Assembly (NCBI GenBank): GCA_003567725.1
Contig: PWYU01000121.1
Span: 1-42,134, forward strand
Direction of reading: 5' to 3'
From: Syntrophomonadaceae bacterium
GTDB lineage: Bacteria; Bacillota; Dethiobacteria; DTU022
Length of the DNA: 42,134 nucleotides
The position numbers and the translations under genes were made by a program. Every line of letters starts with the position of its first letter. Within the stretch, counting starts at the first letter, position 1. Of this stretch, positions 10,092 to 42,134 are shown piece by piece. The notes under the pieces are model-generated. The model did not search any database. It saw only the letters and a list, made by a program, of their open reading frames with translations, and was not told the DNA's origin.

Positions 10092-10215
10092 AGGTTAAAG
10101 CAAACCTGTGCCAGGCCTGAATAAAACAGCTGCAACAGGGAAGACCGGCCCGTATTGCAGCTGCACAGTTTCATTATCAGTTTAACCTTGCAATTAATAT
10201 GTCATCTTAAGCAAG

Positions 10216-10989
10216 TTATTTTTGCCTTATAGCTATTCCGCCCTGACGAGCTGTAATCCAACCCAGGAAAAAGAGAACAGCTGCTGCAGCCAACCAGGCT
10301 ACAATGGTAAGAATTACCAGGTCGGTACCGTGGCGCACCCCGATACCGATCAGAGCCCAGACAAATACAGCAGAATAAATGTAATCCTGGCGCAGGTAAA
10401 AAACAGCCACGGCTAACAGAGCGGCAATAATTAACATTAGAATGGTGAAAAACACACCACCTGCTCCAATACCCAGCCAGCCGATGTTATATAACCAGAC
10501 ATTAAGGTTAACAATAGTTGCTGCCGAAAGCCACCCTAAATATAGGCTGAAGGGGAATTTCACCAGGATACGGTCGTAGATATTTCTCTCTGCTGTAACA
10601 GCACCTAAACGCAGATAGATTATTACCAGGGTAGCCAGGAACAACAGAATCACAATAAATGACCAGCCCACCTGCTGATAGTGCCAGAGAAAAATCCAGA
10701 GTATATTGAAGAAGCAGCTCAGGGCAAAGAGTATACCGACTGCCTTCACCGCAGGGCTTTCCCGGTAACGCGGTAAAGCCTGGTAAATTGTAAATGCAAT
10801 TAGAGAAAGGTAAATCAGGCCCCAGATCGAGAAAACATAACCGGCCGGAGTTATCAAGACCGGATTTAAAGCAGACAGGTCCTCCTGGGTCATATTATTA
10901 ATCGGTAGCGCATTTGACAGAAAATTAACTAAAAGCGTTACAAGCAGAGCCCCAATATTTATGTACGCTCTGATGTCACTCCTAATCAT
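10216..10989 (-). CDS. TspO/MBR-like tryptophan-rich membrane protein
   Basis: 257-residue integral membrane protein with about eight hydrophobic segments. It carries the TPAGYVFSIWGLIYLSL signature (residues about 47-63), the P-G--F-IWG-IY pattern of the longer TspO-like 'tryptophan-rich sensory protein' group. The start is ATG 10989, nine bases after GGAGA; the GTG three codons earlier is too close to that site. Canonical TspO binds porphyrins and cholesterol; whether this longer version does is unknown. It is monocistronic, with relics downstream and about 480 bases of non-coding sequence upstream. Confidence 0.7.
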   Translation of the reverse strand: MIRSDIRAYINIGALLVTLLVNFLSNALPINNMTQEDLSALNPVLITPAGYVFSIWGLIYLSLIAFTIYQALPRYRESPAVKAVGILFALSCFFNILWIFLWHYQQVGWSFIVILLFLATLVIIYLRLGAVTAERNIYDRILVKFPFSLYLGWLSAATIVNLNVWLYNIGWLGIGAGGVFFTILMLIIAALLAVAVFYLRQDYIYSAVFVWALIGIGVRHGTDLVILTIVAWLAAAAVLFFLGWITARQGGIAIRQK

Positions 10990-11482
10990 TATAATCACTC
11001 TCCTTCAAAAAGTAATAATCTATACTTTCATGATTCAGAAATGCGAACCTTAAATACAAACCTGTTGAAATAACAACCGAAACATTCGAAAAACAGTGTC
11101 TGGCAAAGTAATTAAAAACCTTTCCTGCTTTTTGAATCATCTGCGCAGGTAAAAATGTTAATTGCAGCCAAAATTTGCATAACTACATGCCCTTACTAAT
11201 TAATTCTATCTTTATTCCCGTTTCCCTGTTTATTTTTTTGCCAAAAAAAAGCATTTCAGCGATTTCAATATAATAACTGTTTTTCAGTTCTTTTAATACA
11301 ACAAAGGGTATGTCTACCGAACCGGTTGGCCTTTTACTGTTAATAGGACGGCAAATATCGATAATCCTGGGCCGGATAAGCCGGAACCTGAATAACAATT
11401 ACTAGTAAAACAGCAAGCGTTGACTTATAACCTTTATTATCGCTATAATGGGCGCAGTTGTTCAAATTATGGCGGTGATTAA
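10990..11482. other. intergenic region without a convincing gene
   Basis: About 490 bases between the diverging TspO-like and DUF3786 genes. A leftward frame at 11183-11398 (71 codons, TTG start) has some protein-like character (GSVDIPFVVLKELKNSYY) but no ribosome-binding site and no family I recognise. It may be a scrap. No clear promoter or repeat could be assigned. Confidence 0.4.
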
Positions 11483-12151
11483 ATGCCCGGTAAAAACCGA
11501 AACAAACAACTTCACCTGCTTGATGATTCGGCCAATGAACAAAAAAGACAGGAAGCCCTGCGCCATCGTTGCAATCAGCACAGGGAACGCTTAAAAAAAC
11601 GTGATCCCCAGGAAATAGCCGGGTTTGCGGCAATGAGCCTGCAAAAAAATAACGACAGCTCCATTTCACTGAGCGGCAACCACCTTTTGGAAACATATAC
11701 AATTACCTGGCCAAAATTAAGCGTCATTGACAGCGCCGGCAGGCCGGCAAAACTGGTTAAGGAGGCCCTCTGGCTGCATTACCTCGATCGGGCCGATGGT
11801 TGCTCCCTGACAAGGCGCTGGGTTAATTTAAGCGAAATTGGAGGTCTTTTTTACCAGCAAGCTTTTCAAGGTTACTGCGGAGACGAATTGGCTGAAGCCT
11901 GGGGTGACGATGTGGAAGGATTGCGGGAAAAATGCCTCTCTACCGGTGGCTGGGAACTAAGCGAACCCGGCGATCTAAGCATTGAATGGCGAGTTTTACC
12001 TCGCCTTCCTCTTTGCCTCTGTTACCGTCTGCCTGCCGGTTCGAAACCAGCCTGGGCTACAATTTTATTTGACGCTGCCGCCAATCATTATGTAGCTGCC
12101 GATGTTGCAGCAGTATCAGCTAAAGAACTGGCTGACAAACTCAAACCCTGA
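11483..12151 (+). CDS. DUF3786 family protein
   Basis: 222-residue soluble protein. Residues about 70-215 match the DUF3786 pattern as I remember it: ETYTITWPKL near the start, LWLHYLDRADG, WVNLSEIGG, then YRLPAGSKPAWATILFDAAA near the end. The first 60 residues are highly charged and probably disordered. The family occurs in anaerobes, sometimes beside corrinoid-dependent enzymes; its reaction is not established. The ATG follows GGCGGTG at a short distance. An MFS transporter starts 53 bases downstream, so the two may share a transcript. Confidence 0.65.
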   Translation: MPGKNRNKQLHLLDDSANEQKRQEALRHRCNQHRERLKKRDPQEIAGFAAMSLQKNNDSSISLSGNHLLETYTITWPKLSVIDSAGRPAKLVKEALWLHYLDRADGCSLTRRWVNLSEIGGLFYQQAFQGYCGDELAEAWGDDVEGLREKCLSTGGWELSEPGDLSIEWRVLPRLPLCLCYRLPAGSKPAWATILFDAAANHYVAADVAAVSAKELADKLKP

Positions 12152-12204
12152 TCAAACCATTCGACTTTTTAGATGATCATAAACCCAACGGGTAAATAGA
12201 AAAT

Positions 12205-13416
12205 ATGCAGACAGATATTAATCAAAATCAACAAAGCGGACAATTCCATAGTAAGCCTTTGAACTGGGTGCTTTTTTTTGGTTCAGTATTTTTTTTCACA
12301 AGCAACCTGTTTGCTTCTATCTCCATCTTGCCGGGTTACAGCCTGGAATTAGGGAGCACCCCTTTTCTGGCCGGTCTGCAAAACACTGTCTTTTCCGCAA
12401 CAGCGGTTTTGTTGCGCTTTATCTTTGGGCCCATTATGGATCAAAAAGGCCCCAAACCCTTAATGCTAATCGGAGTATTTGCCTTTGCCACAACTCCCCT
12501 GTTAATATATTTAAGCCCCACTTATCCTATGCTGCTGGCAGCAAGGGTTTACCAATCAATAGGCCTTGCTGTTTATTTGCCGGGTATTTCCACCCTGGCA
12601 TCTGAGATGGCGCCACCAGAGAAAATCGGAACCTGCCTGGGAACTTCGCGCATCTTTATAAACCTGGGGCTTCTGGCCGGCCCTTCAGCAGCCCTTTTTA
12701 TAGTTGGAGCTTTTGATTTTGAAACCTGGCTTGCTATAAGCGCTGTTACCTCCGTCATTTCGTTCTTGCTTCTTTACGGAGTTAAAATCCCTGATGTTTC
12801 TTACCGCACTGTTGCGGTTGCCGGATCCCTGAGCCAGATCAAAAAAGTCCTTACTGAAAAACTTATTTATCCTGTCATTGGAGGAATTTTACTTTATGCT
12901 TTTATCTACAGCGGTGTAGTTTCGTTTGCAGCAGTGCATATTGAATCTGCAGCGCCAAACTCCCAGGCTCCATACTTTTTTGTAATACTGGGTGTAGCCG
13001 GAATAGCAGGCTGCCTGGGAGCGGGAGCTCTTTCGGATATTTTCAGCCGCCAGAAATTAGCCTGGCCTTTGTTACTTTTTCTCGGACTGGGAGCGACAGC
13101 TTTTTCTATGATTTATCTATCACCTTTTCTGATCATTATTTGTGCAGTGATTTTAGGTCTGGGCATTCAGGGTAGTTCCCTGGTTTTTGCGGCCTGGTTG
13201 ATTGAATTGAGCAAGCCTGAACTGAGGGCTACAACCATGAGCATGCAGGAGAATTCCATTGATATTATGTTTGCTATAGGGGCTCTGGTTTTCGGGCTGG
13301 CCGCCCAGGGACCGGGCCTGGTTAGCGCTTTTATGGTTGTGGGGATGTTTACCATAGCCGCTGTTATACCCCTGGCCCGAATAAGCAGCAAAATTATCGC
13401 CGGAAAAACTCAATAG
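12205..13416 (+). CDS. MFS transporter
   Basis: Full-length 403-residue major facilitator permease with twelve hydrophobic segments. The first-half loop motif GPIMDQKGPKPLMLIG (an R-less variant of the GxxxDRxGRR signature) follows segment two, and GALSDIFSRQK is the equivalent in the second half. A hydrophilic N terminus of about 18 residues precedes segment one. It resembles drug/metabolite exporters, but the substrate cannot be read from sequence. It ends with TAG and overlaps the convergent zinc-ribbon gene by seven bases. Confidence 0.88.
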   Translation: MQTDINQNQQSGQFHSKPLNWVLFFGSVFFFTSNLFASISILPGYSLELGSTPFLAGLQNTVFSATAVLLRFIFGPIMDQKGPKPLMLIGVFAFATTPLLIYLSPTYPMLLAARVYQSIGLAVYLPGISTLASEMAPPEKIGTCLGTSRIFINLGLLAGPSAALFIVGAFDFETWLAISAVTSVISFLLLYGVKIPDVSYRTVAVAGSLSQIKKVLTEKLIYPVIGGILLYAFIYSGVVSFAAVHIESAAPNSQAPYFFVILGVAGIAGCLGAGALSDIFSRQKLAWPLLLFLGLGATAFSMIYLSPFLIIICAVILGLGIQGSSLVFAAWLIELSKPELRATTMSMQENSIDIMFAIGALVFGLAAQGPGLVSAFMVVGMFTIAAVIPLARISSKIIAGKTQ

Positions 13417-13787
13417 TCGAAGGGAACCAGGTAGACCTGTTTTCCCTCTTTACGGCCTTTAACCAGCTCACAGTGCCTTAAAATTGCAATCTGCTTATCC
13501 AGTTCAAGATCTGAAATGTTTAAGGCAGCCATAACCTCCGGGCGGGTAGCCTTTTCATTTTCTAAAATATAATTATAAATATCCTTTTGGATATCAAGTA
13601 AGCCTTCAGTTCCAGTCTCTCCAGTTTGCTGACGATGTTTTTTTGCCATCTGCACCGCCGCTACATCACATGTCTTAGGCCGCTGGAGAAGCTCCATATA
13701 GCAATCTTCACAGACTCTTTGCTCCTGATGATAATAAAGATCTTCTTCTTTTACTTTTTCCTGGCATTTATAACATTTAATGGCCAT
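13410..13787 (-). CDS. zinc-ribbon plus winged-helix small regulator-like protein
   Basis: 125-residue protein. The first 35 residues hold two CxxC pairs (CYKC and CEDC) separated by about 20 residues, a treble-clef or LIM-like zinc site. Residues about 65-122 look like a winged helix (ILENEKATRPEVMAALNISD, then KQIAILRHCELVKGRKEG). This suggests DNA or RNA binding with a metal-stabilised head. I do not recognise a named family. It is followed leftward by the MFS terminus (seven-base overlap) and lies 41 bases after the IscU-like gene in the same direction, so it may be co-transcribed. Confidence 0.75.
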   Translation of the reverse strand: MAIKCYKCQEKVKEEDLYYHQEQRVCEDCYMELLQRPKTCDVAAVQMAKKHRQQTGETGTEGLLDIQKDIYNYILENEKATRPEVMAALNISDLELDKQIAILRHCELVKGRKEGKQVYLVPFDY

Positions 13788-13828
13788 AATATGAACCTTC
13801 CTTTCTTTAACTGACAGGTGTAAGATCT

Positions 13829-14224
13829 TTAAGCCTGCTGTGGAGATTCTTTCTTTTTTTTGTGCTTTTGCAAGTAGTCTACTATGGCCTGTCGTAAAGC
13901 AGCTACTCCAATGTTGGAGCAGTGCACCTTGGATTCAGGCAGTCCGGATAGAGCCTTGACCACATCTTCTTCTTTTATAGCAACGGCGTCTCGAAGCGAT
14001 TTGCCCGTCGCCATTTCAGTTAAAATACTGGCGGTGGCAATTGAAGCCGGGCACCCGCAAATTTCAAAACTAACTTCTTTTAAACGATCGGCCCTTACAT
14101 GGATGTAAATACGGACAAAATCACCGCAATCCGGATCACCAACCGTCCCTACTCCGTTTGCTTCCGGAATAATACCTACATTTCTTGGATTTTGAAAATG
14201 ATCCATGACTTTAGCTGTATACAT
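13829..14224 (-). CDS. NifU/IscU-like Fe-S cluster scaffold
   Basis: 131-residue scaffold protein for iron-sulfur cluster assembly. The start MYTAKVMDHFQNPRN at 14224 is the canonical IscU/NifU N terminus, with AGGTG about eight bases upstream; a 34-codon upstream extension is not family-like. The three cluster cysteines are present: C33 (GDPDCGD), C56/C58 (CGCPASIA) and C102 (VHCSNIG). The Asp next to the first Cys is also there. No IscS partner is nearby. It diverges from the superoxide reductase gene, which fits an oxidative-stress neighbourhood. Confidence 0.92.
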   Translation of the reverse strand: MYTAKVMDHFQNPRNVGIIPEANGVGTVGDPDCGDFVRIYIHVRADRLKEVSFEICGCPASIATASILTEMATGKSLRDAVAIKEEDVVKALSGLPESKVHCSNIGVAALRQAIVDYLQKHKKKKESPQQA

Positions 14225-14317
14225 TTTTATAGCACCTGCCGGAATCAAAATATAGACCCGATTTTTATTATAACATATGCTTAAGACCGGAATCATTACG
14301 ATTTTACAGAATAATTG

Positions 14318-14359
14318 TTGCTTCAACCTGCAAGTTTTGCTATGATATTAGTATACTAA
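14318..14359 (+). promoter_or_regulatory. promoter and palindromic operator of superoxide reductase gene
   Basis: TTGCTT (14318-14323), 17 bases, TATGAT (14341-14346) form a good sigma-A promoter about 55 bases before the start codon. A perfect 12-base palindrome TTAGTATACTAA (14348-14359) directly follows the -10 box, where a bound repressor would block transcription. ACTAA/TTAGT arms recur just downstream. The PerR gene 1.5 kb away is an obvious candidate regulator, though the site is not a textbook PerR box. Confidence 0.55.
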
Positions 14360-14400
14360 ACTAATATAAAATCTATGATTAGTTTAAAGGAGGAAATGTA

Positions 14401-14796
14401 ATGAGTTCAATAGGAGGACATATTCAATCAGCCGACTGGAAGGCAGAGAAACACGTCCCTGTTATCGAGGTAAAAGGATCGGTTAACAAAAGTGAACCTT
14501 TTGAGGTTACATTAAGCGTGGGCAAAGAAATCCCTCATCCCCATACCACGGAACATCATATTCGCAATATTCAATTGTACTTCAAGCCAGATGAAGAGAA
14601 GTTTATTATTCATCTCGGAACATTTCAGTTTGAAGCTCACGGAGAATCAGCACAGGGCTCCAACCAGGGCAGCGCTAAATGTGAGCCAAAAGTCACCGCT
14701 TCCATCACCCTGGAAAAATCTGGTGAGCTTGTGGCCCTCAGTTATTGCAATATCCATGGCCTCTGGGATAACGCTCAAAAAGTTGATGTCAAATAA
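14401..14796 (+). CDS. superoxide reductase (neelaredoxin type)
   Basis: 131-residue class II superoxide reductase, which reduces superoxide to hydrogen peroxide in anaerobes using electrons from rubredoxin. The iron ligands are visible: H18 in EKHVP, H46/H48/H52-53 in HPHTTEHH, and the axial C116 with H119 in CNIHGLW. The catalytic E16-K17 pair is intact. The N-terminal desulforedoxin domain of class I enzymes is absent. AAAGGAGG stands seven bases before the ATG. It has its own promoter with an adjacent palindrome. Confidence 0.95.
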   Translation: MSSIGGHIQSADWKAEKHVPVIEVKGSVNKSEPFEVTLSVGKEIPHPHTTEHHIRNIQLYFKPDEEKFIIHLGTFQFEAHGESAQGSNQGSAKCEPKVTASITLEKSGELVALSYCNIHGLWDNAQKVDVK

Positions 14797-14844
14797 AGCT
14801 GCATTAACTAAGAGCTTTGTTCTACAATTTTTTTAACCATTTCA

Positions 14845-14883
14845 CAAGCTGTAGAGATCATTATTTATGATTTCTACAGCTTG
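14845..14883. repeat. 11-bp inverted repeat downstream of superoxide reductase gene
   Basis: Arms CAAGCTGTAGA (14845-14855) and TCTACAGCTTG (14873-14883) are perfect complements around a 17-base AT-rich loop. No T-run follows, so it is at best a weak terminator or an RNA-stabilising hairpin 48 bases after the stop codon. Confidence 0.5.
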
Positions 14884-15053
14884 CCTCTAAAGTGCAATTA
14901 TATCAGGCATCCCAAAAGTATAATAACCGCACCGCATAAGCATTTAAAAAACTTTAAGCCTGAAATTAGATTTTATTTTAAGAATGAGGCTGATAATAAC
15001 CAGAAGATATTGTTTCCTCAACTAACAAACTTATCTTCAGAAAGAGTGGTAAT

Positions 15054-15794
15054 ATGAGCTGGCTTGCAATAGGAGCGCTGGGGACCCTGGCCGGGGTAAT
15101 AGGTACCGGAGCAGGGGGCCTGGTGGCCATATTTATGAAAAAACCTTCATCGCGACTCACCGGGACTATCCTGGCCTTTGCAGCAGGTATTATGCTGTCC
15201 ATAGTGTTCCTTGAATTAATTCAAGAATCAATTGAATTTAGTAATTATGGCATAGCAGTTATTGGGCTAACCCTGGGTATGGGCGTATTTTACCTGTTTG
15301 ATCACTTGCTGCCTCATCATCATCCGGTAAGCCCGGAAAATTCTCATCTTGGCGGTTACTTAAAAAAAGGTACCTTGCTGGCCCTGGGCATCGGGCTGCA
15401 TAATTTTCCAGAAGGGCTGGCCATCGGCAGCGGTTTCATTGGTTCAACAGAGCTGGGAACGACCCTGGCCATTTTAATCGGCCTGCATAACATACCAGAA
15501 GGCATGGCCGTAGCAGCTCCCTTGCGGGCTGGAGGATACAGCTACCTGAAGGTGATCTGGATTACAGCTCTGGCCGGAGTTCCTATGGGGATAGGAGCCT
15601 TTATTGGAGCGGCGATCAGCACTATCTCGACTTTGATCCTGGGCCTGTCTTTGGGTTTTGCTGCCGGAGCCATGCTCTATATTGTCTGTGATGAATTAAT
15701 TCCTGATGCTTATGAAACTGCGGGGGCGCATTTTTCCATACTAGGCATTTTTTGCGGAACTGTCCTCGGCTTACTCTTTACTGCCTGGTTTTAA
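15054..15794 (+). CDS. ZIP-family metal transporter
   Basis: 246-residue integral membrane protein with about eight spans. The two transport-site signatures HNFPEGLA and HNIPEGMA sit in segments four and five, as in ZupT-like ZIP proteins. A histidine-rich cytoplasmic loop (LLPHHHP) precedes them. It probably imports zinc, iron or manganese. The nearby PerR and superoxide reductase genes suggest a link with metal supply under oxidative stress. The start has a weak AAGAGTGG site; a start a few codons further in is unlikely because MSWLAIGALGTLAG is the normal N terminus. Confidence 0.92.
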   Translation: MSWLAIGALGTLAGVIGTGAGGLVAIFMKKPSSRLTGTILAFAAGIMLSIVFLELIQESIEFSNYGIAVIGLTLGMGVFYLFDHLLPHHHPVSPENSHLGGYLKKGTLLALGIGLHNFPEGLAIGSGFIGSTELGTTLAILIGLHNIPEGMAVAAPLRAGGYSYLKVIWITALAGVPMGIGAFIGAAISTISTLILGLSLGFAAGAMLYIVCDELIPDAYETAGAHFSILGIFCGTVLGLLFTAWF

Positions 15795-31828: not shown

Positions 31829-32317
31829 CTAGAAAAGCCAGAGACCTAAGAAATGAGCAATCATACCAGCGGCAATGCAAAAAACCAGGTGAAAACCCAT
31901 TCTGAGCAAACTGAACCTTAGTCCCAAAAAACCACCTTCAAAGGGTATTCTCGATAAACTCAGCATAGTCCAGCCCGAAAGCATGGCTATAGTTGTTCCC
32001 AGCCCCGCTCCTGAAGCATAAATAGTAGCGATGATTGGATAAGAAGCATAGGGGCCAAAAGCCATGATCATTCCACCAAAAGTACCAAGGAAAACCCCGG
32101 TCACACCTGCTTCCTGAGCCAACCAGCGCTTAATAAACTCTTCAGGAATTAAAACTTCAAGCAAGCCGGACAGCAAAAGGGCCAGGACTATAACCGGCAG
32201 GGCAACCAGCAGCTGGCGCAAACCGGCTTTTAGCCCCTCCAAATGCCTGGACTGCTTTATATTCAAAATAAATAAAACAACTGCGATACTAAAAAAAATC
32301 AGCGTGGTTGCCAGCAT
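31829..32317 (-). CDS. ArsP/DUF318-type permease, second half
   Basis: 162-residue membrane protein with about five spans, matching the second half of the COG0701 permease family (GVFLGTFGGMIMAFGPYASYPIIATIYASGAGL resembles the family's conserved GGxxPYxSYP segment). The start is ATG 32317: AGGAGGACAG directly precedes it within the end of the upstream gene, and it shares one base with that gene's TGA. A longer version from 32359 would overlap the neighbour by 43 bases without a ribosome-binding site. The pair would act together as one split permease. Confidence 0.8.
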   Translation of the reverse strand: MLATTLIFFSIAVVLFILNIKQSRHLEGLKAGLRQLLVALPVIVLALLLSGLLEVLIPEEFIKRWLAQEAGVTGVFLGTFGGMIMAFGPYASYPIIATIYASGAGLGTTIAMLSGWTMLSLSRIPFEGGFLGLRFSLLRMGFHLVFCIAAGMIAHFLGLWLF

Positions 32318-32844
32318 CACTGTCCTCCTGTTTTCCATGAAACGCCTTTTACACCGCACGGAAAGAAAAGCTTACTGATTAACCCCATAAGAAAGGGAAC
32401 CGGAAAAGTAAGGATATAACGCAGGAAAGCAATCTCAGGATTTATCAAGCTAATTTCCAGCGGTAGCCTGGTAAAATCATAAATTTGCTTACCGGATACA
32501 AAGGTAAACAGGAGATAAAAGGGAATACCCTTTCCTTTAAACCCGGCTAAAAAAGGGTAAAAAATATAAGGCCCCCCGGGGAAAAGCCCTCCAGCCAGAG
32601 AGCTCAACACAATACCTTTAGAACCGGAATATTTTTGCATCCATCCTTTAATCATATCTGCTGTAATTAAAGCCTGCAGCTGGCCGATAACCAGAAAAGC
32701 TGCAAATATCAGCAACAGAGCCCTGTAAGCAGTCATGCTCGACGTTATAAGTCCTTCTGTTACCAGATCCATTCCCCCGGTAAAAAAAGCCACGATTAAC
32801 AAAAGCAGCGAGGAAACAGCCAGGATGATGGCAGTGCTTTTCAT
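32317..32844 (-). CDS. ArsP/DUF318-type permease, first half
   Basis: 175 residues, about four spans, with the first-half family motif SLAGGLFPGGPYIFYPFLAG followed by LLFTFVSGKQIYDFTRLPLE. In single-chain members both halves lie in one protein. Some relatives export arsenicals or transport gases/thiols; no ars gene is here, so no substrate is claimed. Translationally coupled to the second half (TGATG). It follows galU after 12 bases on the same strand. Confidence 0.8.
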   Translation of the reverse strand: MKSTAIILAVSSLLLLIVAFFTGGMDLVTEGLITSSMTAYRALLLIFAAFLVIGQLQALITADMIKGWMQKYSGSKGIVLSSLAGGLFPGGPYIFYPFLAGFKGKGIPFYLLFTFVSGKQIYDFTRLPLEISLINPEIAFLRYILTFPVPFLMGLISKLFFPCGVKGVSWKTGGQ

Positions 32845-34109: not shown

Positions 34110-35591
34110 TTAACCTGATTCAGTTTCCCAGTGCAGGCCATCTCCTTTTTCTACAGTAACCAGTTCCGGAAACTCTTCCCTCACCCTGGCATCTATTTCA
34201 GGCGGAATAATGGGATCTGAAGGCTCCTGGAGAAATTGTGCAGCCAGCTCTTCTGCCCTTTTCCAGCTGTCTTTGCTGCCGGCATCTAACCAGCGCTGAT
34301 AGGGTTGCCGATCACTGGCCTGCGGCGCAAAGCTTTCAGTACGCATATATTTAATCGTATGTTCTTCACTGAGATAATTACCACCTGGTCCAACTTTGGC
34401 AATAATATCATAAGCCAGGCTGTCCTGGTTAATTTCAATGCCCCGCAAGGTGCGCAGGCAGCTGCCGACAATATCATTGTCAATAATATACTGGGCATAT
34501 GATACAGTAAGGGCCCCGTCAAGCATTCCAAATGCCTCATGAATAAAGTTACCGCCGGCCAAAGCGGCCAGCATGCCTGTAGTTGCGCTCTCATGGGCAG
34601 CCTGTGCATCGGGAAGCTTAGAATCAGTAGTCCCCACGGTTAAATAACAGGGCAAACGGTAATAATGTGCCATCTGGGTAATGGCCGCATTCATCAAGCC
34701 TGACTCAATGCTGCCCATTAAAAAAGACATGGTCCGCATATCCATCGTAATCGGAACAGCGCTGTAAAGGACAGGAGCGCCCGGATTGACCAGCTGGCTG
34801 AGCATAATCCCCATCAGGGCTTCTGCGTTTTGCTGCACCAGGGTGCCGGCCAGGGTAATCGGCGCTGTCGCGCCTGCTGCTGGTGCAGTAGAGGTAGCCA
34901 GAGGCAGCCCGTATCGGGCTACTTCCATAATGTATTCTGCCTGCTCAGCACTTATTTTTAAAGGACTTGTGATAGAAGATATAAAACCAATAAAGGGCCT
35001 GCGTTGGAGTTTTTCCAGGCCTCCAGCAATAATCGAAGCAATTTTTATGGAATCTTCCAAACCTTGCTTACTAAAAATCCCTCCCATGATCGGTTTTCCC
35101 GTATTCAAAAGGGACTGATACCTGGTATTGATATCTACTGTTTCTATGTTAATATCATGGGGATAAAGAGGATTAATGAAAAAATTTAAGTATTCAAGTC
35201 GATCGGCCAGTCTGGCCAGCTCAGCCACATCATGGATCTCACCCGGCCTTTTATTGCGTTCAAGATCTAGCACATAAAGAGCCAAACCACCGGTGCCAAA
35301 ATTAACTTTTTTACCACCTATGGTAATATCATTTCCTTCCTTTCGTCCATAAAAGACAAATTCTGCCGGCGCCTGCTTCACACAGCGGGATACGAGATCG
35401 CGGGTCACATAGATACGGTGCCGCTGGTGATCAACTGTAGCTCCGTTTTTTTCAAATATTTCAAGGGCAGGAGGGTAATTAATTTCAAAACCTACATTTT
35501 CCAAGACCTTGATGGAAGTTTCATGAATCTGACTGATTTCTTTTTCTGTTAGGACATTATAGCCTCCACCTTCATAAGTCAATTTTTCCAT
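34110..35591 (-). CDS. MttB-superfamily corrinoid methyltransferase 2 (non-pyrrolysine)
   Basis: 493 residues from ATG 35591, which follows GGGGGG-ACAGG; the frame extends 19 codons further without a site. It belongs to the trimethylamine methyltransferase superfamily: LENVGFEINYPPALEIFEKN at the start, PAAGATAPITLAGTLVQQNA and GTTDSKLPDAQAAHESATTG in the barrel core. There is no in-frame TAG, so it is of the MtgB-like kind that acts on substrates such as glycine betaine or related quaternary amines rather than trimethylamine. It would transfer a methyl group to the corrinoid protein at 37666-38364. About 25-30 per cent identical by eye to MttB-1, so the two probably differ in substrate. Directly after the CBS gene (54 bases). 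Confidence 0.9.
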   Translation of the reverse strand: MEKLTYEGGGYNVLTEKEISQIHETSIKVLENVGFEINYPPALEIFEKNGATVDHQRHRIYVTRDLVSRCVKQAPAEFVFYGRKEGNDITIGGKKVNFGTGGLALYVLDLERNKRPGEIHDVAELARLADRLEYLNFFINPLYPHDINIETVDINTRYQSLLNTGKPIMGGIFSKQGLEDSIKIASIIAGGLEKLQRRPFIGFISSITSPLKISAEQAEYIMEVARYGLPLATSTAPAAGATAPITLAGTLVQQNAEALMGIMLSQLVNPGAPVLYSAVPITMDMRTMSFLMGSIESGLMNAAITQMAHYYRLPCYLTVGTTDSKLPDAQAAHESATTGMLAALAGGNFIHEAFGMLDGALTVSYAQYIIDNDIVGSCLRTLRGIEINQDSLAYDIIAKVGPGGNYLSEEHTIKYMRTESFAPQASDRQPYQRWLDAGSKDSWKRAEELAAQFLQEPSDPIIPPEIDARVREEFPELVTVEKGDGLHWETESG

Positions 35592-35644
35592 AGTACCTGT
35601 CCCCCCGGCATATATTAATATAAACCCTTTTATTGAAGTACCTG

Positions 35645-36142
35645 TCATTGCTGGTTAATTGTTTCCCATTTTTGCACCATGGCCCTGATTAAATCCGCCC
35701 TGGTAATTATCCCCTTTAAGATGTTATTTTCATCAGTAACGGGAATACGATTAATTGTATTATCGTACATCAGGCGGCTCACTTTGTAAAGAGGGTCATT
35801 TTCTGTAACCCGTATCACATTTGTTGTCATAAGCGTTTCTACGGTAGTAGCAGCGACTAGCTCTATCACTTCCACCCCTCGATGCGTTATATCAACATGC
35901 AGGACCTCTTTACCTTTGGTAAAAACTTGATGAGGGTCTCGCAAAGGCTGGCCGATTATTTGCTGGGTATAACGTAAGATATCTGTTTCAGAAATAATTC
36001 CGATTACTTTATTCTGCTTATCAGTCACCGGCATACCACTAAATCTATTTTCATCCAGAATTTCAGCCGCTCTCTTCAGTGAAGTATCCGCTTTTACGCT
36101 GATCACTGGAGAAGTCATTACATCTTTCGCCAATACCGCCAT
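35645..36142 (-). CDS. CBS-pair protein
   Basis: 165 residues consisting of two CBS domains and almost nothing else: MTSPVISVKADTSLKRAAEI ... GIISETDILRY, then MTTNVIRVTENDPLYKVSRL ... GIITRADLIRAM. Such stand-alone modules bind AMP, ATP or SAM and regulate a partner. The next gene downstream is MttB-2, whose original long frame begins inside this gene's stop region. A SAM- or nucleotide-sensing control of the methyltransferase module is a reasonable guess, not shown. The upstream terminator at 36257-36288 can separate its transcription from the SAM methyltransferase gene. Confidence 0.9.
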   Translation of the reverse strand: MAVLAKDVMTSPVISVKADTSLKRAAEILDENRFSGMPVTDKQNKVIGIISETDILRYTQQIIGQPLRDPHQVFTKGKEVLHVDITHRGVEVIELVAATTVETLMTTNVIRVTENDPLYKVSRLMYDNTINRIPVTDENNILKGIITRADLIRAMVQKWETINQQ

Positions 36143-36256
36143 ATTAATCCCTCCCCTAAAGCTTTTAACTAAATTTTAACAACTGTCAGCGCATATAAAT
36201 GAATTCTTTCTATAGGATGTTATCACCACCTGGTTTACATTCTTAGCCGGCGAATT

Positions 36257-36305
36257 AAAAAAGGCAAGCAAGATTGTTCCTGCTTGCCGATCATCGGACA
36301 ATCTT
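36257..36305 (-). terminator. terminator with competing anti-terminator stem
   Basis: Reading the minus strand: GGCAAGCA and TGCTTGCC form an eight-base stem followed by TTTTTT, a complete intrinsic terminator (36257-36288). Immediately 5', AAGATTGT (36298-36305) plus CC can instead pair with GG...ACAATCTT, which lies in the terminator loop and part of its 3' arm. The two structures exclude each other, the layout of an attenuator. It sits between the SAM methyltransferase gene and the CBS/MttB-2 genes. Confidence 0.65.
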
Positions 36306-36416
36306 AATATACTTCTTAAATAAAATTTATCATAACTATAAGCGCCATTACAAGGGACTTTGCCCTTTAATTTCTTTACACAATGATTGCTTATGATAAA
36401 AATATTTCTAGTGCCG

Positions 36417-37664
36417 TTACTTATTGATCTGGATGATGCCAACTAATCCATGGCCAAGACCGTGTCCCTGCTGAAGATTCATCTCCAGGCTGCGAATGGC
36501 ATATCCAAGTTGAGCTTCGATCAAATCCGCCCTAATATCGCCGTAAAGGCCTTTACTGCCTTCCAGACTCTGCCGCATCACCCGGTAGGCTTTCTCAAGC
36601 GGTTTTATATCAGTTTGCGGCGGGTAGGGCAGCAGTTCCTCGTCACTATCATAATGTTCCATCAGAACCATGGTATAATCGACTAAAGCATTCCAGCTTT
36701 CGGCCAGCCTCTGAAGAACTTCATTCTGCCAATCGAATCCTTCCCTGGGTTTGTAGTCCACTTTAAGATCCGGGAAATAGGTCCTCAAACCGCGCTCAAA
36801 CAGCGAAGAAACCATGAGACGCAGAGGTTGAGGATTGCCGTTATAGGTGCCGGTCTCGATATGTCGGCCCACAAACAGGGAACGGTCGAAAAAGCGTAAT
36901 ACCTTCAGCTCTACTCCGGCTTTACGGGCTGCGCTTTCGAGAATTTTAAAAACTTCAGTCGGCGTCATAAGCCGCAGTGGAAATGAAGACAGCTCTACAC
37001 TATCTCTATCATCCTCAGCATAGAGGTAGTTAATCACATAGTCAATATAGGATACTTCTTCCGGATCGTGGGTCCACAGGTTTTGCCATTCATAAGAATA
37101 GCGGCCGATAAAATCAGCCAGGATCAAGCTTCCGTCATTACCATGCTTGCCCATATCTACAAAGAGCTTTTCTAATTCTTCATTGGTGCAGTGTGACAGA
37201 GTCCCGTAAGATGTAAAGTACAAATCATACGGTTCTTCACCTTCATCTACCGGCAGACCATTGGAAAAGTCTCCTTTGCAAAAATTAACATGCTCATAAT
37301 CGCCAAAGAGGTTTTCAGCTTCTTTAAGCAGCTCGATGCTTAAATCAATGCCCTTATATTGATCCATCATATCGTCTTTAATTAAACGGGTATCGAACTG
37401 CGATAACCTGGCCCCCTTGGCCATTTTGCTGAGCAGGTCATAGCCGTCCCCGGTTCCACATCCTAAGTCATAAAAACGCAACCCTTCTCCGCCTTCATTT
37501 AAATTCTTCTTTACAATATCTTCTATATGGGGCCTGAGGTAGTATTTAGTAATGAAATCTTCGAACTGGGTGCGGACATGGTCGTATTTACAGCGCAGGC
37601 CTCTTACCTGCTCACTATACCTCCCGTGTCTTATCGCCTCAGTATAAGCATTATCGGCATCCAT
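36417..37664 (-). CDS. SAM-dependent methyltransferase in corrinoid operon
   Basis: 415-residue class I methyltransferase. Motif I is FYDLGCGTGDGYDLL (about residues 64-78), with the acidic motif II in GIDLSIELLKEAENLF and the motif IV-like YDLYFTSYGTLSHC. The C-terminal 200 residues are an all-new, partly helical region (FDWQNEVLQRLAESWNALVD, YRVMRQSLEGSKGLYG) that I cannot place. It starts one base after the TAG stop of the corrinoid-protein gene, with GGAGG 11 bases upstream, so the two are expressed together. The substrate could be an amine related to betaine, or it may act in regulation; neither is shown by the sequence. Confidence 0.8.
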   Translation of the reverse strand: MDADNAYTEAIRHGRYSEQVRGLRCKYDHVRTQFEDFITKYYLRPHIEDIVKKNLNEGGEGLRFYDLGCGTGDGYDLLSKMAKGARLSQFDTRLIKDDMMDQYKGIDLSIELLKEAENLFGDYEHVNFCKGDFSNGLPVDEGEEPYDLYFTSYGTLSHCTNEELEKLFVDMGKHGNDGSLILADFIGRYSYEWQNLWTHDPEEVSYIDYVINYLYAEDDRDSVELSSFPLRLMTPTEVFKILESAARKAGVELKVLRFFDRSLFVGRHIETGTYNGNPQPLRLMVSSLFERGLRTYFPDLKVDYKPREGFDWQNEVLQRLAESWNALVDYTMVLMEHYDSDEELLPYPPQTDIKPLEKAYRVMRQSLEGSKGLYGDIRADLIEAQLGYAIRSLEMNLQQGHGLGHGLVGIIQINK

Positions 37665-37665
37665 A

Positions 37666-38364
37666 CTATTTAGTCCCTCCTGCCTGTATTAAATTCTCTG
37701 CAATCCGAATAGCAGCGAAAGCATCTTTTCCATAACCATCTGCTCCAATCTCGGCAGCAAAGTCATCGGAAGTAGGGGCCCCACCGATTATTACCTTAAC
37801 TTTGTCATGAAGTCCTTTTTTGTCTAGCTCTTTAACGACATCTTCCATATTAGTCATAGTTGTATTTAACAAAGCCGACAGCCCGATCAAGTCAGCATTT
37901 TCTTCTTCGGCCGCTTCAACTATTCGAGCAGCAGGCACATCAATGCCCATATCTACTACATTAAACCCGGCTCCTTTAAGCATAATAGAAACCAGGTTCT
38001 TCCCAATATCATGCAGGTCTTTTTCAACCGTAGCCATAATAACTTTCCCTTTGCCACCACTCCCGCCTTCGCTGGCAAGGTGCGGTTCCATCACGGTCAT
38101 ACCTGCTTCAACAGCTTCTGCTGCAGTAAGCATATCCGGGATAAAATACTCACCAGTTTCATATTTTTCCCCAACCTGCTCCATGCCTTTGCTCAGGCCT
38201 TCGAGCAGAATCGTATTGGTATCGATCCCGTTATCCAGGGCTTCCTGGACCAGTTCTGCCACCCCGGGTTCTCCAATGTAATCTTCTTCTATGCCTTCAT
38301 CATCTTTATTACGACGTCCCTGCAGGACATTTTCCACAATTCGTTCTATTATTTTATCACCCAA
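37666..38364 (-). CDS. MttC-like corrinoid protein
   Basis: 232-residue cobalamin-binding methyl carrier. An N-terminal helical cap (residues about 28-95: GLSKGMEQVGEKYETGEYFI) precedes the B12 domain. The lower axial ligand His118 is in the DxHxxG motif (DLHDIG, 116-121), with GLSALL and GGAPTS completing the base-binding signature. It would accept methyl groups from MttB-1 or MttB-2 and deliver them to a tetrahydrofolate methyltransferase, not found here. GGAGG is about ten bases before the ATG. An extra acidic stretch (DDEGIEEDYIGEP) after residue 20 is longer than usual. Stop is TAG, so amber is not recoded here. Confidence 0.95.
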   Translation of the reverse strand: MGDKIIERIVENVLQGRRNKDDEGIEEDYIGEPGVAELVQEALDNGIDTNTILLEGLSKGMEQVGEKYETGEYFIPDMLTAAEAVEAGMTVMEPHLASEGGSGGKGKVIMATVEKDLHDIGKNLVSIMLKGAGFNVVDMGIDVPAARIVEAAEEENADLIGLSALLNTTMTNMEDVVKELDKKGLHDKVKVIIGGAPTSDDFAAEIGADGYGKDAFAAIRIAENLIQAGGTK

Positions 38365-38419
38365 AACTAAAACTCCTCCTTGCTTATTTTTACTTTTGCA
38401 AGAGCCACTTAGCCCTTTT

Positions 38420-38452
38420 GCTTAAACACGCAATTTTATAAACGGTTTAAGC
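38420..38452 (-). repeat. intercistronic hairpin between MttB-1 and corrinoid genes
   Basis: Perfect eight-base arms GCTTAAAC (38420-38427) and GTTTAAGC (38445-38452) around a 17-base AT-rich loop, in the 131-base gap between the two genes. No T-run follows, so it is more likely an RNA stability or processing hairpin than a terminator. Confidence 0.5.
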
Positions 38453-38495
38453 ATAATCAGTTTTAAGACACATAAATAGCAGTCTTTCAGCATAA

Positions 38496-40031
38496 TTATT
38501 TCGAGTATGGGTTTAGCCGAGGCAGCAACCCGGGAATTTTTTCAAAAATACTTTTGCAAACATCTTCCGGCAGGTACTTCGGTTCGACCTGCTCCAGCTC
38601 TTTCATTTTTTCATGAGCTACCAGTAAAGTATGATCCTGATCTTCAGAGTCACCTTCAAATGGAAAACCGGGAAATATTTCGCCTCTACGCAGCATTTTT
38701 CTCGCATAGCGGGCATATAGTTTGTAAGGGCTTGCCATTACTTCGCCAATCATACTTTTAATCCTGTCTGCATCTTGTGGTTCAATTTTACTTCCTGCAT
38801 ATAGTGCTTTAACCATCCCAATTTGATGGTTTTCTAAGACAGCCTGCTCCGGGCTAAAGGTTTGAGTTTTATCCAGCAAACCAAAAGCATAATGAACTAA
38901 ATCGGGAGCTGAAGAAGGCACTGAAGTATATGTAAACATCTTTTCTACCGCCGCCTGAACTCCCGGAATTTTTGCATCTGCAACTCCTGCAGTAGAGTAA
39001 CAGGGGACCTGGTAATAGCGCGCCATCTGGGCACAGTCAATATTGTAATGGCAAAACTCGGGCACACCATACATATCATGAAGATCATCCATACGAGCCC
39101 GCACAGGCACAGCCCCGTATATAACAGGAGCTCCCGGATTGCTTAGCTGGTTTATTGCTATACCGGCCAAAACTTCTGCATTAACCTGTGCCATCATGCC
39201 AAACTCCTCAATTGGGGCTGTAGAGCCACCCTGGGGAGAAGTTGAGATAATAACAGGTAAATTTTTGCGAGAAATTGCCATAAGCTTTTCAGCGGTTTCA
39301 TCAACTACTTGTAAGGGGCTTTTAATTACGCTGGTTATAAAAGTAATCAGTGGATTCTTTAGCAATTCTTCTTTTCCGCCAGCTATTAATTCTGCCATAT
39401 CAATAACTTTTTCAAGCTGATCCAGGCTGGATATTCCGCTTACTATCGGTTTGGTAGTATGATTAAGTGCGGCAAAAAACATATTAACATCTTTATTTTC
39501 ACCAGTAATATCAGAATCCTGAACATTCACATTACGTAAGAAAAAATCAAGATTTTCCAGTTGTTCCGACAAATGTGCTGAACGGCAAAGATATTCTAAA
39601 TTCCCGCGATTCTTTTTCATCACCGGGAATACTTCTTCTCTGCCATCGATTTTTGAAACAAATGTCTCTGCCTCAATTTCTAACCAGTAATTAGTTTCCG
39701 ATCCGGTGCCAAAGTGAACCCTTGTCCCTTCAGCTTCCATAACAATTTTATTTTCAGGATCTCTTGCTCCAAGAACAACTTTCGAAGGGGCTGTATCCAG
39801 GGCCTGCTTTATGATTTTTTCAGGAATACTAACCCACCAGGCATCGTGTTCACCTTCACGGGTCGCTTTCACTTTTGCCCCAGCTTTTTCCAACATAGTT
39901 ACACATTCTTGATTGTAACAAAGAATGCCCGGGTTTTCTAAAAGATCCAGCGATGTTCGATGGACTAATTCAATCTGCTCCCGGTTCAAACGCTCATACG
40001 GTTTAGTTACATCTACTCCTCTTTGACTCAA
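38496..40031 (-). CDS. MttB-superfamily corrinoid methyltransferase 1 (non-pyrrolysine)
   Basis: 511 residues. Family pieces: HRTSLDLLENPGILCYNQEC, FGTGSETNYWLEIEAETF, TSPQGGSTAPIEEFGMMAQV, and YSTAGVADAKIPGVQAAVEK in the barrel. There is no in-frame TAG, so like MttB-2 it is a non-pyrrolysine type with a quaternary-amine substrate. It is the first gene after the terminator at 40535-40570 and so probably the operon leader. The start is the TTG at 40031: an in-frame TGA lies close upstream, and no ATG is usable. The ribosome-binding site AAAGGAGGTG is 31 bases away across a hairpin (see 40029-40072). The second-half tail, FPGFPFEGDSEDQDH, is acidic. Confidence 0.9.
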   Translation of the reverse strand: MSQRGVDVTKPYERLNREQIELVHRTSLDLLENPGILCYNQECVTMLEKAGAKVKATREGEHDAWWVSIPEKIIKQALDTAPSKVVLGARDPENKIVMEAEGTRVHFGTGSETNYWLEIEAETFVSKIDGREEVFPVMKKNRGNLEYLCRSAHLSEQLENLDFFLRNVNVQDSDITGENKDVNMFFAALNHTTKPIVSGISSLDQLEKVIDMAELIAGGKEELLKNPLITFITSVIKSPLQVVDETAEKLMAISRKNLPVIISTSPQGGSTAPIEEFGMMAQVNAEVLAGIAINQLSNPGAPVIYGAVPVRARMDDLHDMYGVPEFCHYNIDCAQMARYYQVPCYSTAGVADAKIPGVQAAVEKMFTYTSVPSSAPDLVHYAFGLLDKTQTFSPEQAVLENHQIGMVKALYAGSKIEPQDADRIKSMIGEVMASPYKLYARYARKMLRRGEIFPGFPFEGDSEDQDHTLLVAHEKMKELEQVEPKYLPEDVCKSIFEKIPGLLPRLNPYSK

Positions 40032-40072
40032 TCTGCCAGCCCGGTATTGTCACCGGGCTGTTCACCTCCTTT
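40029..40072 (-). promoter_or_regulatory. hairpin between ribosome-binding site and TTG start of MttB-1
   Basis: AAAGGAGGTG (minus strand of 40063-40072) is a perfect ribosome-binding site. Then come AGCCCGGT and ACCGGGCT (40052-40059 and 40038-40045) with a six-base loop, then GGCAGA and TTG. If the eight-base stem forms, the effective spacing falls from about 31 to about 12 bases, allowing initiation. If it melts, translation should drop. So the stem may be needed for, or may tune, translation. Confidence 0.65.
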
Positions 40073-40319
40073 AGTTACTGTACTTTCTCGAAAACCCATA
40101 AATTAAGTTCCGAGAGGCTGATCCTTAAATCACATCTGGAACATTTTAAATAGAAAGACTGTAAAACACCGGCTTTAAAATAAAAAAACCGTATTAAATC
40201 GTTCAGGGCGCGCCTGATTTTGATTGTTATACGGATGTTTTGTAATTTCTTCTAAAATTATCCGGCCCGTTAACCGGAGGCGCTTTCTTATTCCTGCCAG
40301 TTTCTTTAACAGTCCATAT

Positions 40320-40344
40320 GCTATTATTATGTCATAATAATAGC
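40320..40344. promoter_or_regulatory. 25-base perfect palindrome, probable operator
   Basis: GCTATTATTATG (40320-40331), a central T, and its exact complement (40333-40344). GTCCAT/ATGGAC arms flank it at wider spacing. It lies in the 460-base region (40073-40534) between the MttB-1 start and the bidirectional terminator, which otherwise holds no convincing gene. A 24-codon rightward frame beginning at 40365 is not supported. No clear promoter could be assigned. Confidence 0.6.
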
Positions 40345-40534
40345 GTTCTTGCAAAAGGGAAGATGGACAGTATTATGAAGGATAGCAATACTATGTTTAG
40401 GATTAGCCAATTAATCACAACTCATATCTACAAATAGGCCACACAATCATGCTCCATTGTTATTATACGTAAATTTAAGCAAGCCAGCTGTAATCACTTA
40501 ACAAATAAACCCTGAATTAAGGCGGGCACTTAAA

Positions 40535-40570
40535 GTTAAAAAGAAGGCTGTTTACAGCCTTCTTTTTAAC
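40535..40570. terminator. perfect 16-bp hairpin terminator
   Basis: GTTAAAAAGAAGGCTG (40535-40550) and its exact complement (40555-40570) with loop TTTA. The arms carry A5 on one side and T5 on the other, so it can end transcription in either direction. It lies 77 bases after the stop codon of the betaine-binding protein gene. Confidence 0.9.
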
Positions 40571-40646
40571 AAATAAAAGACATCCTTCTCTCGAATTTCT
40601 AAAAATCAAACCCTTTCAGACACAGTTTCAGTAAAACCCTTACCGC

Positions 40647-41582
40647 TTAACCAGAAATAAGTCCCACTTCGATAAGCCACTGACGGGTTACCTCTTCAGG
40701 ATCTTCTTCCAGCACTTCAACTTGATAATTCAATTCGATGATAGTATCAGTATCCAGTAAAGGCCCGATCTGGTTTAATAGAGCTTCTATTTCTTCTCTA
40801 CTAACATCCAGGCCTTCTGCAATGTCTGATCTGATTACAGGTGCCGGGTTGTAGACCGGGAAAAATTGCTGATCGTCTTCAAGGTTAACCAGATCCAATT
40901 CGGCAACCTTACTGTCTGTTGCAAAGCCCATGGCTACATCTACATCACCATCGCGCAAAGCCACATGGGTAAGTCCCAGTTCCATATCCATGATATTATC
41001 AAACTCAAAACCGTAAAGTTCCTGGAGCGCAGGGTAACCATCTTCGCGGACCATGAATTCATGCTCAGCAGCCAGGCTGACAGCATTTCCAGCGGCCTGC
41101 TGCTCCTCGATCCACTCCTTCAAATCAGTAATTGTCTCAATCCCTTCTTGTGCTGCGTGCTCTTCACGCATCATTAAGGTGTAAGTATTATCAAAAGGAG
41201 CTCTTTCCAACCAGATCAGGTCATTTTCTTCTAAGTCCCTTGACGAGACCAGATCATAAGCTTCCTGCTCATCAACAATTTCTTCTTCCTCTTCAAAAAT
41301 AACCATCCAGGCAGTCCCGGTGTATTCCCAGTAAGTGTGAATATCACCGCCTTCTAGGGCTGAGCGGGCAACCTCGGTTCCTCCAAGGTTAATGTTCGCA
41401 TTGACCGGGATTCCCGCATCATCCAGAACATGGTAAGTCATCCAACCCAGGAGAAATTGTTCGGTGAAGTTTTTAGTTCCTACCTCCACTACGGGTTCAG
41501 CAGCACAGCCTCCCAGTGCAATCATTAATGACAGGACAATCATAAATACTACTACTAAAGTTAATACTTTTTGCTTATTCAC
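40647..41582 (-). CDS. betaine/choline-type ABC transporter binding lipoprotein
   Basis: 311-residue extracytoplasmic binding protein of the OpuCC/OsmF type. The signal peptide ends in the lipobox LGGC (Cys26). The family N terminus VEVGTKNFTEQFLLG and the AALEG-DI--YWEYTGTAW segment are clear, followed by RDGDVDVAMGFATDSKVAEL. The protein is very acidic (for example EEEEEIVDEQEAYD), as in organisms that live in salty conditions, though this is weak evidence. It delivers betaine, choline or a similar quaternary amine to the permease upstream in the same direction. As such it would supply substrate to the MttB proteins. Confidence 0.9.
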   Translation of the reverse strand: MNKQKVLTLVVVFMIVLSLMIALGGCAAEPVVEVGTKNFTEQFLLGWMTYHVLDDAGIPVNANINLGGTEVARSALEGGDIHTYWEYTGTAWMVIFEEEEEIVDEQEAYDLVSSRDLEENDLIWLERAPFDNTYTLMMREEHAAQEGIETITDLKEWIEEQQAAGNAVSLAAEHEFMVREDGYPALQELYGFEFDNIMDMELGLTHVALRDGDVDVAMGFATDSKVAELDLVNLEDDQQFFPVYNPAPVIRSDIAEGLDVSREEIEALLNQIGPLLDTDTIIELNYQVEVLEEDPEEVTRQWLIEVGLISG

Positions 41583-41711
41583 AACTTATACCCCCATTTA
41601 AAATCAACTTTTCGAGAGAAGGATCCTTTATGCTATTGGACAAACCAGGTTTAGAACTAATATTCATAAACAAGCCTGATCTGGACCAAACTTATAAACA
41701 ACTTCAATATA

Positions 41712-42134
41712 TCAAACCTCAGCCTCGATAATACTCAGGATGTAATCCAGGAGAACGGCTAAACTTGCGGCCATAACCGCACCTGTTAAGAATAACTGGG
41801 GCCGCATAACAGCCATCCCGGTTTTAATCAAAACACCCAATCCACCGGCAGCAATAAAGGTGGCCAGGGTTGCCGCCCCGACATTTACTACCGATGCAGT
41901 CCTGATGCCTGCCATAATTACCGATAAGGCCAGGGGAATCTCAATCCTTCGCAGCACCCGGCCCGGTTTCATTCCCATTCCTTTCGCTGCCTCAATAATA
42001 TCAGGCGAGATTGTGTTTATCCCGGCATAAGTATTACGAAGTATAGGTAAAATCGAATATAGAAAGAGAGCAACAACAGCAGTTTGAAACCCCATCCCGA
42101 TAATACCCATAAAAATTGCCAGAACCGCAATACT
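41712..42134 (-). CDS. betaine-type ABC transporter permease, partial
   Basis: 141 residues present; the frame is open through the right edge, so the N terminus is missing. Membrane segments with the permease coupling motif EAAKGMGMKPGRVLRRIEIPLAL (the EAA loop) and later IRTASVVNVGAATLATFIAAGG and GLGVLIKTGM identify an OpuCB/OpuCD-like inner-membrane permease. It lies 129 bases upstream of the binding-protein gene on the same strand, so the two are probably one transporter. The ATPase is expected beyond the window. Confidence 0.92.
   Translation of the reverse strand, partial: SIAVLAIFMGIIGMGFQTAVVALFLYSILPILRNTYAGINTISPDIIEAAKGMGMKPGRVLRRIEIPLALSVIMAGIRTASVVNVGAATLATFIAAGGLGVLIKTGMAVMRPQLFLTGAVMAASLAVLLDYILSIIEAEV

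Follow-up and report, generated by a model that had tools for sequence, protein, structure and literature searches.

What does a SAM-dependent methyltransferase do beside genes resembling those of a B12-dependent amine demethylase, and do the two MttB-type proteins encoded with it belong to one pathway? To our knowledge, the majority of MttB-superfamily proteins have no known substrate. The window, by which we mean the whole stretch of DNA analysed, is the entire contig C124 (42134 bases). An earlier note had read the genes near its end as one methyl-carrier hub, in which a single corrinoid protein takes methyl groups from two MttB proteins acting on two quaternary amines, with a CBS-pair protein as metabolite-sensing control, alongside a SAM methyltransferase and a betaine importer.

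Gene content of the window

Genes were assigned by Pfam and NCBIfam profile searches (Table 1). Open reading frames and profiles bear out the presence of MttB1, the corrinoid protein CoP1, the SAM-dependent methyltransferase SAMMT, the CBS-pair protein and MttB2. The true start of MttB2 is probably near 35591, at about residue 20, since its homologues start at MEKLTYEGGG. The betaine-type importer was confirmed in part: an OpuAC binding protein, whose match to the OsmF model of NCBIfam is below the cut-off, and a permease are present, but the window being the whole contig, the system is cut by the contig end, leaving part of one permease and placing the ATPase and the other permease beyond it. 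In relatives with complete importers, such as L022, a CBS pair is found on the ATPase.

All named genes were found on the minus strand. This does not mean one transcript, and a strong terminator-like hairpin separates SAMMT from the CBS gene. The hairpin had no counterpart in the four relatives scanned, and a claim of two transcripts is therefore not based on it.

Table 1. Features of the MttB region, in window coordinates
Feature	Position	Strand	Assignment and support
MttB2	34110..35648	-	non-pyrrolysine MttB-superfamily; Pfam MTTB PF06253 E=4e-117
CBS-pair protein	35645..36142	-	Pfam CBS 1.9e-34
Terminator-like hairpin	36263..36288	-	11 bp stem + T6; between SAMMT and CBS genes
SAMMT, 415 aa	36417..37664	-	class I SAM-dependent methyltransferase; Methyltransf_25 3e-07
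CoP1, corrinoid protein	37666..38364	-	B12-binding 1e-31, B12-binding_2 2e-16
MttB1	38496..40031	-	non-pyrrolysine MttB-superfamily (COG5598/PF06253); Pfam MTTB 1e-61
Substrate-binding protein	40647..41582	-	OpuAC/OsmF-like, quaternary amine; OpuAC 4e-50
Importer permease, C-terminal part	41712..42134	-	BPD_transp_1 5e-19; runs off contig

Two diverged, non-pyrrolysine MttB proteins

Both proteins belong to the MttB superfamily, with PF06253 scores of 391.7 bits for MttB2 and 208.8 bits for MttB1 (gathering cut-off 25). Aligned with MtgB of Desulfitobacterium hafniense, they are 36% and 24% identical, respectively. On sequence comparison MttB1 is a deep, distinct branch of the superfamily; its orthologues were found in 25 Dethiobacteria genomes, each scoring above 930 bits. 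Among the matches listed, relatives of MttB1 on plasmids were less than 29% identical, and the viral and phage collections searched held no useful relatives.

The pyrrolysine site is occupied by valine in MttB1 and threonine in MttB2, and both frames are uninterrupted; for these reasons a pyrrolysine reading was rejected. Scores with the pyrrolysine MttB model TIGR02369 (444.6 bits for MttB2, 247.9 bits for MttB1) were below its 525-bit cut-off. MttB2 also matches PYLIS_3 of Rfam (58.7 bits), but this was discarded, as it lies inside uninterrupted coding sequence.

Four residues of MtgB, Y94, N199, R309 and H345, are predicted to bind glycine betaine, by docking and not from a ligand-bound structure (PMC6855144). 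In the alignment, these columns hold S, S, Y, Y in MttB1 and G, S, Y, E in MttB2. Thus the predicted residues are in neither window protein, but two paralogues elsewhere in the genome, on contigs C92 and C53 (C53a), carry Y, N, R, H, and the MttB paralogues of these contigs each adjoin an MtgA-type gene. This weakens the betaine reading of the locus, and the aligned positions indicate that the substrate of MttB1 is probably not glycine betaine. Like the MtgB/MtgA system of D. hafniense, the region has a non-pyrrolysine MttB enzyme and a B12-binding corrinoid protein, in a genome with MtgA-type enzymes; it differs by the low MttB identity, the missing glycine-betaine residues, the lack of MtgA and the added SAM methyltransferase.

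CoP1 is marked as a methyltransferase-cognate corrinoid protein by its B12-binding_2 cap and B12-binding domain and by an intact DxHxxG motif (DLHDIG). It scores under the NCBIfam cut-offs of the named corrinoid-protein subtypes and, aligned with CoP2-type proteins, shows a 14-residue insert beside VLQGRRNKDDEG. No MtgA gene was found within the window; three MtgA-type genes and further corrinoid-protein genes lie outside it in the same genome, and at loci L099 and L101 MtgA directly adjoins MttB1-CoP1.

Three separable units

By the earlier note, a gene order conserved in genomes where the SAM methyltransferase and the CBS protein both neighbour MttB-type genes would support a defined system. 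Gene order is kept in relatives, its conservation goes far beyond chance, and a defined neighbourhood of this kind is supported. Of the Dethiobacteria genomes, 23 carry both end genes, MttB1 and SAMMT, and in each of them the two are linked, with CoP1 between them in every Dethiobacteria locus viewed. The same three genes occur together in a Clostridiales genome from the Soudan mine; in two further loci, L035 and L061, one of them from Lentisphaerae, SAMMT adjoins MttB1 with no corrinoid gene between. MttB1 and SAMMT distances correlated over 17 loci (r=0.94), and shared ancestry alone accounts for part of this correlation. The adjacency of CBS and MttB2 is likewise conserved in relatives. In soda-lake bacteria, a putative B12-dependent amine-demethylase pair is nearly always encoded beside SAMMT.

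The region is made of three separable units, MttB1-CoP1-SAMMT, CBS-MttB2 and the importer, and in many relatives the importer sits between the other two. In genome G017, importer-CBS-MttB2 is retained; no close MttB1 was found there, and the locus has neither CoP1 nor more than a broken SAMMT end.

These arrangements bear on whether CoP1 serves both MttB proteins in one hub. The genes share a strand within 8 kb, and in the window's family CBS-MttB2 lacks a nearby corrinoid gene to itself. There is also a precedent in Eubacterium limosum: in the sections of PMC8604678 consulted, MtqC is shown by assay to serve several MttB proteins, so that a single hub is conceivable here, the sharing of CoP1 being hypothetical. 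The same sections describe several diverged MttBs in one genome (MtpB, MtcB, MtyB), from which the shared carrier MtqC and the tetrahydrofolate enzyme MtqA can be encoded apart; unlike the window, they place no SAM methyltransferase or CBS protein with them. Against one hub stand G017, the further corrinoid proteins of the window genome, the intervening importer, and four loci (L031-L033, L065) where the related second MttB comes with an MtgA and a corrinoid protein (CoP2) of its own. We consider a single hub unlikely: the claim of one carrier for two MttBs retains the MtqC precedent, but is weakened by the separability of CBS-MttB2. In the CBS-pair protein, whose part in metabolite control is hypothetical, both CBS copies carry G-h-h-[ST]-x-x-[AD]-like motifs, which suggest an adenosyl compound as ligand.

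SAMMT, a class I methyltransferase separable from MttB1

SAMMT has a Rossmann class I methyltransferase fold, with a helical insertion ahead of the last strand (AlphaFold pTM 0.82, mean pLDDT 77), and three conserved motifs, YDLGCGTGDG, which is an intact SAM motif, EWxxxW and DRSxxxGRHxxTG. Compared with the PDB, the model matched class I enzymes (best Z 18.2, rmsd 4.0 over 229 residues). No NCBIfam family was found at 0.001, and no specific Pfam family. Neither NCBIfam nor PDB sequence profiles gave a match to the betaine-synthesis methyltransferase families, and assignment to these from sequence was dropped as unsupported. The structural match to human GNMT, at Foldseek rank 36, is one of the generic class I hits and does not discriminate. 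An adenosylhomocysteinase neighbour at L062 and L096 might have tied the locus to SAM turnover, but this was rejected, the two genes being convergent in L062 and L096 lacking SAMMT.

Two genomes from a different Bacillota family carry SAMMT and gave no MttB match. Distant homologues lie on two Streptomyces plasmids, where their neighbours are a 2OG-Fe dioxygenase-like gene and one for a LysE exporter, with no MttB on either plasmid record; these neighbours fit a small-molecule substrate for SAMMT. Conversely, MttB1-CoP1 is kept in G030, where SAMMT is internally deleted with out-of-frame ends left, and in G025 and G055, where SAMMT is absent. Its distribution requires five or more changes on branches with good support, and some SAMMT-free MttB1 lineages may never have acquired it. 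The place given to SAMMT in the hub is weakened by these occurrences without MttB and by the three genomes that do without it.

The gene starts 1 bp downstream of CoP1 in the window, as might be expected if SAMMT used SAM to reactivate or prime the corrinoid, a role like that of the activation domain of MetH. The Soudan homologue also weakly matches CpaM (NF043040), whose name describes a SAM methyltransferase linked to corrinoid proteins; generic class I motifs are common to both, but this model, of 216 positions, gave no match to the window SAMMT and 22.9 bits to the Soudan homologue, against a cut-off of 180. A reactivator is nevertheless quite unlikely, given SAMMT without MttB, its position next to MttB1 without CoP1 in L035 and L061, the persistence of MttB1-CoP1 without it, and Met_synt_B12-like proteins in or near clusters L033, L061 and L101. 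In Ruegeria pomeroyi, corrinoid-dependent demethylation by MtgBCD is likewise tied to methionine metabolism (PMC12478193); this aerobic marine system has MtgC and MtgD as a methionine-synthase-type system and no separate class I enzyme.

The tight linkage to MttB1 could also mean that SAMMT is a protein methyltransferase modifying MttB1 or CoP1, and protein N-terminal methyltransferases are among its structural matches, though as generic class I enzymes. Its presence where no MttB was found and its loss where MttB1-CoP1 is kept make this highly improbable. Finally, SAMMT might be an unrelated passenger, held beside MttB1 through inherited gene order: it is lost in three genomes, and the entire neighbourhood, GalU included, is syntenic in close relatives. 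This too is very unlikely, for the adjacency is also found in distant genomes (Soudan Clostridiales, Lentisphaerae, another Bacillota family).

Discussion

The reading we favour, while holding it as somewhat short of probable, is that MttB1, CoP1 and SAMMT form a core that demethylates an amine, with SAMMT as an accessory small-molecule enzyme and not a step of the relay, and with CBS-MttB2 and the importer separable from it. MttB1 would move a methyl group from a methylated amine, probably not glycine betaine, onto the Co(I) corrinoid of CoP1, and one of the MtgA-type enzymes encoded outside the window would pass it on to tetrahydrofolate. CBS-MttB2 would act as a second demethylase unit, equipped with a putative sensor of its own, and the importer would make up the third unit. 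SAMMT most likely would N-methylate an amine or an amino acid from this same pool of compounds, and would perhaps make the amine that MttB1 unmakes, which would let the organism build up a methylated solute and also take it apart.

A substrate-modifying enzyme beside an MttB cluster has a precedent in the choline pathway of E. limosum, MthB/MthC/MthA/MthK (PMC12155760); there, the accessory enzyme is a choline kinase and, unlike in the window, the tetrahydrofolate enzyme MthA is inside the cluster. No paper in our literature search combined MttB, corrinoid protein, SAM-dependent methyltransferase and glycine betaine, and none paired CpaM with corrinoid or Dethiobacteria with glycine betaine. 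In the part of the Natranaerobius literature consulted, glycine-betaine transporters are reported and a matching methyltransferase is not named.

A bolder version, which we regard as rather doubtful, is that SAMMT founds an undescribed family making a methylated solute that MttB1-CoP1 of the same operon would strip, a reversible store whose methyl groups would be salvaged into tetrahydrofolate. Two points speak against the favoured reading: enzymes that make and break the same amine, encoded in a single operon, would run a futile cycle if left unregulated, and no specific relation of SAMMT to the known betaine-synthesis methyltransferases could be detected.

The conserved SAM-using partner offers a lead to the substrate for one deep MttB branch: if SAMMT makes what MttB1 breaks down, its product would name the substrate of both. 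If true, this would be a make-and-break methyl module in anaerobes, and would reveal a possible route by which haloalkaliphilic anaerobes regain the methyl groups of solutes they have stored.

Gene content

The window is all of contig C124, in an assembly of 2.39 Mb and 127 contigs. Close relatives are Syntrophomonadaceae MAGs from sediment samples, a group which we take, from sample names and general knowledge, to be soda-lake Dethiobacteria. The minus strand carries every gene named in the earlier note, and Pfam and NCBIfam back the assignments. The betaine importer described there is present in part only, being incomplete because the contig stops inside the permease. MEKLTYEGGG opens the homologues of MttB2, so that its true N-terminus is probably about 20 residues short of the longest ORF. 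Both MttB frames are uninterrupted and without pyrrolysine. A PYLIS_3 match falls within MttB2, a gene with no in-frame UAG, and this RNA model seems to pick up conserved mttB coding sequence.

Features located in the window and in compared loci
Locus	Feature	Position	Strand	Remark
Window	Two half-length, overlapping ArsP-type permease genes	31829-32844	-	Beside GalU, kept in relatives
Window	Rfam PYLIS_3 match, 58.7 bits	34532-34631	-	Within MttB2
L033	Stand-alone protein like the SAM-binding activation domain of MetH	14306-14977		In or near MttB-corrinoid cluster
L061	Same	5923-6594		In or near MttB-corrinoid cluster
L101	Same	7113-7652		In or near MttB-corrinoid cluster
L066 (G017, contig C47)	Phage-like genes (terminase-like, primase-like; read from sequence)	~9000-15400		Directly adjoin broken SAMMT end; intact importer-CBS-MttB2 on its other side

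MttB1, CoP1 and SAMMT are linked in relatives

SAMMT and MttB1 were both searched for in 98 genomes of the class Dethiobacteria. A close MttB1 (>930 bits) occurred in 25 of them, 23 of which had SAMMT, whole or partial, and in all 23 the two genes shared one contig. CoP1 lay between them in all loci viewed. The same order is repeated in a Soudan-mine Clostridiales genome (L033). Two loci have MttB1 adjoining SAMMT with no corrinoid gene between: L035, from a Lentisphaerae genome, and L061, from another Bacillota family. In L061, SAMMT is broken across two frames and the MttB2-like gene is truncated. The Lentisphaerae locus also has an asparagine synthase near SAMMT. In a deeper MttB1 branch (L096, L099, L100, L101), a third and very divergent MttB homologue comes after MttB1 and a corrinoid protein, with an asparagine-synthase-like gene behind it in L096 and L101.

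The neighbourhood is real: SAMMT and CBS are conserved beside MttB genes in relatives, and the proposal of the earlier note withstands this check. It is not one indivisible system, as its units are separable, and a single hub for two quaternary amines is not established. CBS-MttB2 is a second unit. Many relatives, unlike the window and L029, have the importer between SAMMT and CBS, and genome G017 keeps importer and CBS-MttB2 with SAMMT reduced to a broken end and no close MttB1 found. From its motifs, the CBS protein is a putative sensor of an adenosyl ligand. One region of contig C120 of the window genome holds three further MttB paralogues, a CBS-like frame and another betaine-type importer.

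Glycine-betaine enzymes are likely encoded elsewhere

A glycine-betaine label is probably wrong for both MttBs. Against D. hafniense MtgB (sequence from a PDB alignment), MttB1 is 24% and MttB2 36% identical. Docking predicted four MtgB residues to bind glycine betaine (PMC6855144); the corresponding columns read S,S,Y,Y for MttB1, and those of MttB2 read G,S,Y,E. Among 12 MttB-family matches in the genome, paralogues on C92 and C53 have all four residues (48% and 44% identity to MtgB) and adjoin MtgA-type genes, so that the glycine-betaine enzymes are likely encoded outside the window.

SAMMT is probably an accessory methyltransferase

Searches matched SAMMT to generic methyltransferase domains only among known families, and to generic class I enzymes in the PDB. 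The AlphaFold model (mean pLDDT 77, pTM 0.82) is class I in fold, with about 140 mostly helical residues inserted ahead of the last strand. The SAM motif, E-W-x3-W, D-R-S-x3-G-R-H-x2-T-G and a C-terminal G-x-G-x2-H are among the elements conserved out to Streptomyces homologues.

The gene can be missing where MttB1-CoP1 is kept. In G030 its first 49 residues are followed by the conserved C-terminus out of frame, the middle being deleted, and MttB1, CoP1 and importer are still there; MttB1-CoP1 also occurs without SAMMT in G025 and G055. On well-supported branches of the MttB1 tree, the SAMMT-neighbour label must change five times or more. SAMMT is present in G102 and G148, from another Bacillota family (probably Natranaerobiales), where MttB gave no match at all. 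Distant homologues (28-31% identity to the window protein) on two Streptomyces plasmids adjoin a 2OG-Fe dioxygenase-like protein and a LysE exporter. Because of these absences, the genomes with no MttB match and the Streptomyces neighbours, an accessory small-molecule methyltransferase fits better than an obligatory part of a corrinoid relay. Reactivation of the corrinoid by SAMMT is likewise disfavoured, because SAMMT occurs without MttB, adjoins MttB1 without CoP1 in two loci, and several clusters have Met_synt_B12-like proteins inside or nearby.

Contig C51 of the window genome weakly matches the tabulated MetH-activation-domain-like proteins. An S-adenosylhomocysteine hydrolase gene adjoins a SAMMT-MtgA-CoP2 cluster in L062 (convergent) and MttB1 in L096 (same strand).

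Proposed route of the methyl group

The corrinoid motif of CoP1 is intact, and the protein carries a 14-residue insert that the CoP2 type did not show. Further corrinoid-protein genes and three MtgA-type genes lie elsewhere in the genome. MtgA immediately adjoins MttB1-CoP1 in L099 and L101, which suggests that the methyl takes the ordinary route to tetrahydrofolate. Several MttB proteins of E. limosum use one common carrier (PMC8604678), so carrier sharing by the window MttBs would be possible.

Most likely, MttB1 would methylate Co(I)-CoP1 from some methylated amine, an MtgA encoded elsewhere would move the methyl to tetrahydrofolate, and SAMMT would act on an amine from the pool to which the MttB1 substrate belongs. 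Making and breaking a stored solute would most simply account for both linkage and independent occurrences, and would need regulation against futile cycling. The lasting interest lies in a hitherto undescribed SAM methyltransferase family, linked to a deep MttB branch.
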